Assembly (NCBI GenBank): GCA_030748735.1
Contig: JASMLK010000025.1
Location: 1 to 64,000 of the forward strand
Source of the DNA: Myxococcota bacterium
GTDB lineage: Bacteria; Myxococcota_A; UBA9160; UBA4427
Length of the DNA: 64,000 bases
Direction: 5' to 3'
Numbering within the stretch: the stretch's first letter is position 1; each line of letters opens with the position of its first letter. Below, in pieces: positions 40,202 to 47,063 of the stretch. The translations under genes were made by a program, and so were the position numbers. The notes under the pieces are model-generated. The model did no database searches. It was not told where the DNA came from and saw only the letters and a list, made by a program, of their open reading frames with translations.

Positions 40202-41440
40202 TCAGGCGCCAGGTGTTGCGGCCAGCTGTGCGACGTCGGCACCGCTCGGCTGCTGGAAGATCCGCACGCCGAATTCGGGCGCGATGGCGAGAAAATGATC
40301 GAAGAGGTCCGACTGGATGCCTTCGTGGTTCGCCCACACGATGTCGTTCGTAAAGCAGTAGATCTCGAGCGGAAGCCCTTCCGGGCCCGGCGCGAGCTGG
40401 CGAACGATCAGCGTGCGACCCTGATGGATCTTGGGGTGGTTCTTCAAGTACTCGAACATGTACGCGCGAAGCGTGCCCGCGTTGGTGAGCCTGCGGATGT
40501 CCGCGTTGATCTCCTGGTTGCGGCCATCTTCGGCGTTGTGAGCCGAAAGCTCACCGCGCTTGTCGGCCATGTAGTCGCGCAGTAGGGCGAACTGCGAGAA
40601 GCGCTCGATCTCGTCTTCTTCGAGAAAGCGAACACTCGTGACGTCGACGGAGAGCGAGCGCTTGATGCGACGCGAATTCGAATCCGACATCCCGCGCCAG
40701 TTCTTGAACGAACTCGTGATGAAGGCGTGGGTGGGGACGGTGGTGATCGTCTTGTCCCAGTTCTGCACCTTGACCGTGTGGAGCGTCACGTCGATCACGT
40801 CACCGTCGGCCCCGTAGGAGGGCATCTCGATCCAATCGCCGACGTCGAGCAAGCGGTTGTTCATGATCTGGATGCTGGCGACCAGTGACAGCAGGGTGTC
40901 GCGGAAGACGATCAGCAGTACGGCGGAGACGGCGCCGAGACCACTCAGGAAGATCCACGGCGAGCGATCCATCAAGATCGAAAGCGAAACGATCGCGCAC
41001 ACCAGGTAGACGATCAGCCGGACGAACCCGAGGTAGCCCTTGATGGGCCGCCGACCAACGTCGGGGAGCTGGCTGTAGATGTCGGCGACGGCGTTCAGGA
41101 AGGCGCTCACCGCCATCGCGGTGATCAGCGTGGCCGACGCGAGCGCAACGCGTTGGATCACAACTTCTACCCTGGGCTGAAGCGCGAAGATTTCGCCCCC
41201 GAAGTAGATGAAGAGCACCGGGATGAGATTCGCGACGCGATTGAAGAAGTGCGCATTGAGCAGCGCATCGTCCCAGTGGGTTTCGCTTCGCCCGACGGCC
41301 GCGCGCGCGATGCGGAGCATCCAGCGGCTCGCGATCGAGTCGGCAAGCCAGCCGAGCAAGGCCAGCAGCGAGAGCCCGATGGCCTGGAAGATGATGGGGT
41401 GCTGCTGAGAGAATTCGCTGATGGTCTGTTGCAGGTCCAC
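40202..41440 (-). CDS. Mechanosensitive ion channel MscS family protein
   Basis: N-terminal TM helices; FRDTLLSLVASIQIMNNRLLDVGDWIEMPSYGADGDVIDVTLHTVKVQNWDKTITTVPTH. Confidence 0.9.
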   Translation of the reverse strand: MDLQQTISEFSQQHPIIFQAIGLSLLALLGWLADSIASRWMLRIARAAVGRSETHWDDALLNAHFFNRVANLIPVLFIYFGGEIFALQPRVEVVIQRVALASATLITAMAVSAFLNAVADIYSQLPDVGRRPIKGYLGFVRLIVYLVCAIVSLSILMDRSPWIFLSGLGAVSAVLLIVFRDTLLSLVASIQIMNNRLLDVGDWIEMPSYGADGDVIDVTLHTVKVQNWDKTITTVPTHAFITSSFKNWRGMSDSNSRRIKRSLSVDVTSVRFLEEDEIERFSQFALLRDYMADKRGELSAHNAEDGRNQEINADIRRLTNAGTLRAYMFEYLKNHPKIHQGRTLIVRQLAPGPEGLPLEIYCFTNDIVWANHEGIQSDLFDHFLAIAPEFGVRIFQQPSGADVAQLAATPGA

Positions 41441-45377: not shown

Positions 45378-45904
45378 CCCGGACGCCCCTCATTCGAGGG
45401 CTGAGCGCGGATCGACCTGGCCCTGTTCGAACAGGCTCCAGTCGAGCACGTCGTCCGGGTTGCTCGACTGCGGTAGCTGACCGCTCGGCAGACCACTCAG
45501 TTCGCGTGCCGCCTGGTTTTCGAGCGAGAGTGGGTACGCGACCCGGTTCATCGGCTTGGGTGTGCGCTCCCCCACGCACAACACACCCGAGAAAACACGC
45601 AACTTCCCTCGGAACGGACACAGGGCTCTATCGGGAAAACCCGGTCCGACTGAAGGCTGGGTGAGAATTCTGGCACGGGCGGACCGCGCAGCATGGGGCG
45701 GTAACGCGGCGTCTGCGGCCAACTGCTTCGGCGACATCGACATCAGGGCTGGACGAACTCGGTCCTCAGCCGATAGTCTGCTGGTGCGCTGCCGGGGGTA
45801 TTCCGCCCATTCGATCTACAGCGAAACCCATTCGTAGGACCCGAACCACCCCAGCGATGGATCTCACTGAACCATCTCCAAGAACAACGGAAGGAAACCA
45901 AGCC

Positions 45905-46522
45905 TTGACAGAGACGATTCAGGTCGGGAGCGCCGTCCCCGACTTCACACTGACGACCTACGAGCCGAGTTCCGGCGACTTCGACGAAGTCAGCCTCGCG
46001 GACCTGAAGTCGAACGGGAAGTGGACGATCCTCTTCTTCTACCCCGCCGACTTCACCTTCGTCTGAGCGACCGAATTCGCGGCCCTGGCAGGGCTGCAAG
46101 ACCGGTTCGACAAGCTGGGTGCGCGCCTCATCACCGTGAGCTGCGACACCCATTTTACCCACCTCGCCTGGCACACCGTCGAGAAAGAACTCGCGGACGT
46201 CAAGTTCACGATGGCATCCGACAAGACGGGTGAGCTGGCCAGGACCCTGGGCATCTACATCGAAGACGCCGGCCTCGCCTTGCGCGGCACCTATGTGATC
46301 AGCCCCGAAGGCACCCTCCTCTTTTCGGAGGTGAACTTCCTCAACGTCGGCCGCAACGTCGACGAGTTGATGCGCAAGTTCAAGGCTGCCCTCTATGTGT
46401 CCAAGAAGGACGAGGGCATCCCGCCGAGTTGGAACGAGGAAGGCGACCTCACGCTGAAACCCTCCGCCAAGATGGTGGGCAAGGTGCACGAGGCCCTCGG
46501 CAACGACGGGAACCCCGCTTAG
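45905..46522 (+). CDS. Peroxiredoxin (AhpC/Prx family), predicted selenoprotein: in-frame TGA at 46064-46066 = Sec at the peroxidatic position
   Basis: FFYPADFTFV-[TGA]-ATEFAALAGLQDRF aligns to the universal FYPxDFTFVCPTE; both halves in the same frame; TTG start with GGAAGG upstream. The ORF track shows it as 45857..46066 and 46136..46522. Confidence 0.85.
46067..46106 (+). promoter_or_regulatory. Putative bacterial SECIS element
   Basis: GCGGCCC-TGGCA-GGGCTGC (46079-46097) 7-bp stem, apical loop starting 19 nt after the TGA, G in loop position 2; outer ACCG/CGGT stem. Confidence 0.7.
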
Positions 46523-46649
46523 TTCGGGCCCCGTTCGCTACACTCGATCGAAACAGCGGCTCCGAGCGCATGCTCGGGGCCGCTCTTCGTTTGTGGCGCT
46601 TGCATGTGGATCAGGTTGGCGTGCCGTCAGGGGTCGCGACGTGCACGCG

Positions 46650-47063
46650 CTAACCGATGTGAACCACGACCTTCCGCGAGCCCCGCGCGTGGCGGTGTTC
46701 CCAGAGGAAGATGCCCTGCCAGGTACCGAGCAGCAGACGCCCGGCTCTTACAGGCACCGAAAGCGAAGTCGCGGTGAGCGCGGCCTTGATGTGGGCCGGC
46801 ATGTCGTCGGGGCCTTCGGAGGTGTGGCGGTAGAGCGGATCGCCTTCCGGCACGAGGCGTGCGAGCCAGCGCTCGAGATCGTCCTGCGCCGAAGGGTCTG
46901 CGTTTTCCTGGATCACGAGACTCGCAGACGTGTGGGGAATGAAGATGGTGCAGAGGCCTTCTTCGCCGTCGGCTTCAGTGACGAGCGCAGCCACCCGGGA
47001 CGTGATCTCCACCATGCCCTGCCCGCGCACTGGCACGGTGAACTCACTCACGCGACCGCTCAC
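46650..47063 (-). CDS. YjbQ family (secondary thiamine-phosphate synthase-like) protein
   Basis: GLCTIFIPHTSASLVIQENADPSAQDDLERWL; GTWQGIFLWEHR. Confidence 0.9.
   Translation of the reverse strand: MSGRVSEFTVPVRGQGMVEITSRVAALVTEADGEEGLCTIFIPHTSASLVIQENADPSAQDDLERWLARLVPEGDPLYRHTSEGPDDMPAHIKAALTATSLSVPVRAGRLLLGTWQGIFLWEHRHARGSRKVVVHIG

Follow-up and report, generated by a model that had tools for sequence, protein, structure and literature searches.

A predicted selenocysteine-containing AhpC-type peroxiredoxin from a Myxococcota assembly, and the loss of the C-terminal resolving cysteine in its clade

The gene at positions 45905-46522 of the window (the whole 64,000-nucleotide stretch that was analysed, contig C25 of a 5.08 Mb assembly estimated to be 95% complete) very likely encodes a functional selenoprotein of the AhpC/Prx1-like family, with an in-frame UGA that would specify selenocysteine (Sec) 54 at the peroxidatic position (Table 1). 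It had originally been predicted from the DNA alone that a TGA replaces the catalytic Cys in an otherwise open frame, and frame reading, domain matching, and alignment to PDB chains all confirmed this. The TGA at 46064-46066 is the sole in-frame stop between TTG 45905 and the terminal TAG (context ...FFYPADFTFV-U-ATEF...), with no frameshift or second stop, and read-through gives a full-length AhpC/TSA protein that matches PF00578 (AhpC-TSA; E=1.2e-35, 122.6 bits). The nearest PDB chains by sequence are AhpC proteins, which align without gaps across the site and place the TGA codon at the AhpC peroxidatic Cys. The PxxxTxxU pattern of TxxU Sec peroxiredoxins is present as PADFTFVU within the AhpC-TSA domain. 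Of the motif first proposed, FYPxDFTFVCPTE, the placement of TGA at the peroxidatic Cys held, but the residues that follow read UATEF rather than UPTE. Mechanical open reading frame (ORF) lists do divide the gene into two ORFs, as had been anticipated for gene callers, so that a standard ORF list cuts this gene at its catalytic residue. The starts of close homologues' genes coincide with TTG 45905 in the alignment, which makes an in-frame ATG farther upstream, at 45857, the less probable of the two.

Table 1. Features of the predicted selenoprotein gene (window coordinates)
Feature	Position	Strand	Comment
Sec-containing AhpC-type peroxiredoxin CDS (predicted)	45905..46522	+	205 aa including Sec54; TTG start, TAG stop (46520-46522)
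Probable Shine-Dalgarno GGAAGGA	45889..45895	+	9 nt upstream of TTG; inferred by reading the sequence
UGA codon, predicted selenocysteine 54, peroxidatic residue	46064..46066	+	Frame reading, PDB alignment, homologue codons
bSECIS hairpin GCGGCCCU-GGC-AGGGCUGC (predicted)	46079..46097	+	8 bp stem, -13.1 kcal/mol; 12 nt after UGA
Apical triloop GGC of hairpin	46087..46089	+	20 nt after UGA
Cys80 codon (TGC)	46142..46144	+	Only Cys codon of the gene; candidate alternative thiol
Ile172 codon (ATC)	46418..46420	+	Alignment position of the AhpC-type resolving Cys

The region beyond the UGA has the character of coding sequence. Third-position GC content is 0.91 before the TGA and 0.87 after it, compared with 0.84 for uvrA and 0.67 for a noncoding control, the stretch following the FKBP gene. 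By direct counts within the clade that contains the window gene (window, L002-L006, and L103), pN/pS falls from 0.27 upstream of the Sec codon to 0.19 downstream of it, and stands at 0.11 over approximately the last 54 residues. Since purifying selection thus acts on codons beyond the UGA, that part is very probably translated and useful. Furthermore, among 80 homologous loci in other assemblies, encoding proteins 60-94% identical to the query, the codon at the Sec54 position is TGA in 75 and TGC or TGT in the other 5, Cys being the only alternative residue. These homologues come from Myxococcota, Planctomycetota, Nitrospirota, Acidobacteriota, Krumholzibacteriota, Rokubacteria, and others. 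The original reading of a selenoprotein, in which the TGA was not a product of random decay, is therefore borne out by TGA or Cys at the same codon in independent assemblies from several phyla and by selection downstream. Three other loci with apparent stops were set aside: the TAG of a homologue in G052 (L113) and the stops of L110 and L111 proved to be the end stops of those genes.

On the tree, the five Cys versions (L031, L039, L049, L065, and L076) branch from within the Sec versions, with 3 changes counted and some long branches, and they do not keep the hairpin described below. This suggests Sec-to-Cys reversals, in a sample biased towards Sec forms; such reversals are reviewed as rare outside FdhA and SelD (PMC13188914). 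In many homologues (e.g., L010:2983-3591, L014:2971-3597, and L065:2971-3588), the N-terminal region also carries one or more Cys residues, for instance as DCC or CACLGC, which are absent from the window protein. The gene is patchily distributed, with a close copy in about 9 of 117 relatives although selA occurs in 96 of the 117 regardless, so that co-occurrence of the gene with selA is uninformative, and a copy 85% identical (L003) is filed as Spirochaeta. Together the patchy distribution and L003 point to frequent loss or transfer, or to mislabelled bins.

The machinery for Sec insertion, which the original prediction had proposed looking for, was found complete in the same assembly: selA (E=2.9e-132), selB (298 bits, in a frame of 681 aa), selD (322 bits), and a tRNA-Sec with anticodon tca (UCA; 73 bits). 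The selD frame itself contains one in-frame TGA (...VPAGG-U-ARK...), and SelD is thus predicted to be a selenoprotein as well. Elsewhere in the assembly, the redox position is occupied by an in-frame TGA, with a hairpin after it, in five further AhpC-TSA-family frames (L115, L116, L118, L119, and L126, with the motifs WUPPC, TPGUTAE, WUPYC twice, and WUPPC), which suggests that the organism may be rich in selenoproteins. In the window, TGA is the ordinary stop of three genes (uvrA, mazG, and a PilT-like gene); therefore, the code has not been generally reassigned and context must decide how each TGA is read. Of the nine genomes with a close homologue, one (G062, 85% complete) yielded no selA, possibly owing to assembly incompleteness.

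Such context is offered by a hairpin downstream of the UGA, occupying nucleotides 16-34 when numbered from the U of UGA. The bacterial SECIS (bSECIS) model requires a 3-9 nt loop with G within its first two positions, a 4-16 bp stem, a UGA-to-loop distance of 16-37 nt, and a minimum free energy of at most -7.5 (PMC13188914). In the region where a search for a SECIS element had been proposed, the window hairpin lies within these published limits (GGC loop, 8 bp, 20 nt, -13.1 kcal/mol), and 75 of 76 TGA loci pass the test of loop, stem, and energy. Across 74 TGA sequences, 99.7% of pair cells are kept, compared with at most 63.5% for slid hairpin controls, and the loop is GGC or, rarely, GUC. 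Changes on both sides of a pair account for 13 cells, in 7 sequences at pair 18-32 (variants U-A, G-U, A-U, and C-G) and in 6 at pair 21-29 (U-A to C-G). In most of the window clade, GCUGCUCU..AGAGCAGC has become GCGGCCCU..AGGGCUGC with all eight pairs kept though the encoded EQ has changed to GL, and the hairpin of L004 carries A-U and G-U variants. When the same proteins are recoded with shuffled synonymous codons, the null for the 76 TGA genes is 5.33 of 8 pairs, whereas the real genes have a mean of 7.97 and are strongly stabilised (mean z -2.98). For the 5 Cys genes, a mean of 4.0 pairs compares with a null of 4.03, and there is no such stabilisation (z +0.74). The hairpin is thus retained with Sec and is lost from conservation without it. 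Rfam models gave no relevant match across 45500-46800.

These observations also bear on other ways of accounting for the TGA. The window sits in a fragmented assembly and Cys homologues exist, as would suit a pseudogene or an assembly error turning TGC or TGT into TGA at 46064-46066. We nevertheless consider this reading, already refuted for the family, to be of negligible probability, given that 75 other loci share the TGA at this codon, that the hairpin is kept only in TGA genes, and that purifying selection downstream is strong. Hardly more plausible is the production of two short proteins, one of 53 residues and another from a GTG restart at 46136, which is what the two ORFs of mechanical lists would represent: the catalytic residue would be in neither product, and the codons between TGA and GTG (ATEFAALAGLQDRF...) are conserved in relatives. 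Alternatively, UGA might be read through as an ordinary amino acid by a Trp or Cys suppressor. We found no point in favor of this, and it is very improbable in view of the complete Sec machinery, Cys as the invariable alternative among homologues, the tie between hairpin and TGA, and the normal termination of uvrA, mazG, and the PilT-like gene at TGA. A codon-usage scan of the window returned one weak TGA-bridged frame at 40886 on the forward strand, probably by chance; the same scan missed the Sec peroxiredoxin gene and so has too little power to exclude further genes of this sort.

With UGA taken as Sec54, the protein can be placed relative to known peroxiredoxins. Its best NCBIfam score is to the AhpC model TIGR03137 (E=6.8e-55, 185.7 bits), below the curated equivalog cut-off of 272; a canonical Cys AhpC of a related genome scores 331.5 bits. 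Comparison with PrxU-type proteins, as originally proposed, upheld the Sec peroxiredoxin reading but not membership in the curated PrxU family, since the protein scores 165.9 bits on NF040737 against a cut-off of 270, which tested relatives also fail. Curated AhpC and PrxU models thus miss, by score, the tested members of the group with the UATEF site. A Sec peroxiredoxin (Prx, TxxU) is known from Eubacterium acidaminophilum (Sohling 2001, as cited in PMC13188914), and TxxU forms are found in many bacterial selenoproteomes (PMC1088965, PMC1794560, PMC13188914). The window protein shares with these Sec at the peroxidatic position, the AhpC/TSA domain, and an in-frame UGA with a downstream hairpin, but differs in having UATEF for UPTE, a PrxU score below cut-off, and a clade without the resolving Cys. 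From AhpC, to which it is nearest by NCBIfam score and PDB chains, it differs in its sub-cut-off score, in Sec for Cys, and in the missing C-terminal resolving Cys. Like 1-Cys peroxiredoxins of the Prx6 and AhpE types, it is without the usual resolving Cys and would be expected to use an external reductant; unlike them, it has Sec rather than Cys and groups by sequence with AhpC/PrxU. The active-site His of Prx6 (His39 of human PrxVI and PfPrx6), thought to make Prx6 refractory to common thiols (PMC12697902), is replaced by Tyr in the window protein (FFYPADFTFV), as in AhpC. As Sec peroxiredoxins are an established class, the core identification is ordinary, and the clade is a modest new variation.

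That variation concerns position 172, the place of the resolving Cys in AhpC. The original prediction had remarked that the C-terminal region reads GIPPSWN without this residue, and the alignment traces the difference to a Cys-to-Ile substitution plus a one-residue deletion, both specific to one clade. Of 81 aligned proteins, 75 have Cys172, and the remaining six (window and L002-L006) have Ile at this position and also lack one residue directly upstream (KK-DEGIPPSWN versus KKADEGCPSKWK), so that GIPPSWN of the window aligns with GCPSKWK. With Ile172, the window protein falls outside the typical 2-Cys peroxiredoxins as defined by a C-terminal resolving Cys. The six sequences form one clade (support 100/99), and the loss is therefore counted as one change on the tree; L103, 89% identical, reads DEGIPPTWN and is likewise without Cys172. 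The Sec-AhpC homologues L007-L081 (from Nitrospirota, Planctomycetota, Acidobacteriota, and Krumholzibacteriota) resemble the window protein in their UATEF site and 60-73% identity, and their TGA members have the same hairpin, but the resolving Cys is still there (e.g., in EGCPSKW). The enzyme of the window clade, most of whose members here come from Myxococcota assemblies, may thus be described as a putative "1-Sec" AhpC-type peroxiredoxin. A literature search by title and abstract, with subscription papers outside its coverage, returned no Sec peroxiredoxin without a resolving Cys.

In typical 2-Cys enzymes, the product of the attack on peroxide is resolved by the partner subunit through its C-terminal Cys. 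For the window enzyme, we propose that SelB would bind the hairpin and deliver Sec-tRNA-Sec, allowing UGA to be decoded as Sec54, which would then attack peroxide and be converted to a selenenic acid. With no Cys172 on the partner, the simplest reductant is an external thiol, which would resolve this intermediate directly in place of the neighbouring subunit, in a one-chalcogen ("1-Sec") cycle at an active site that retains the Tyr of FFYPADFTFV. On sequence grounds, direct reduction of oxidised Sec54 by an external thiol is probable, with glutaredoxin/glutathione or thioredoxin as the most likely source. Candidate reductants in the assembly are two strong glutaredoxin-domain matches; a thioredoxin reductase is also encoded, as is a homologue of GCS2-type glutamate-cysteine ligase, which would fit glutathione synthesis, although nothing in the assembly matches the GshA model of E. 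coli type. Flanking genes are not conserved beside the gene in relatives, and no partner can be inferred from the neighbourhood.

Alternatively, Cys80 could have become the new resolver, in the same chain or across an oligomer interface, making this an atypical Sec-Cys enzyme. In its favor, all six sequences without Cys172 have Cys80, as do the sisters L007 and L008, which retain Cys172, and the gain of Cys80 may therefore precede the loss of Cys172; the additional close relatives L103 and L109 (the latter partial, ending before residue 172) have it too. Cys80 is also found, however, in other members that retain Cys172, for a total of 15 of 81 sequences, and the tree requires 4 or more changes at this position. 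Since Cys172 was lost only once, no statistical association with Cys80 can be drawn. To our knowledge, position 80 is not a recognised resolving position in peroxiredoxins, and we regard a resolving role for Cys80 as unlikely.

In sum, it seems somewhat favored that an AhpC-type selenoenzyme clade of single origin exchanged dimer-based disulfide resolution for a one-selenium cycle, completed by glutaredoxin or thioredoxin or by a Sec54-Cys80 bond. The sisters L007 and L008, with the resolving Cys, and the window clade, without it, provide a natural before-and-after comparison for asking whether this Cys is dispensable with selenium. If the proposal is true, it would be the chemistry of selenium that allowed the usual resolving Cys to be lost.
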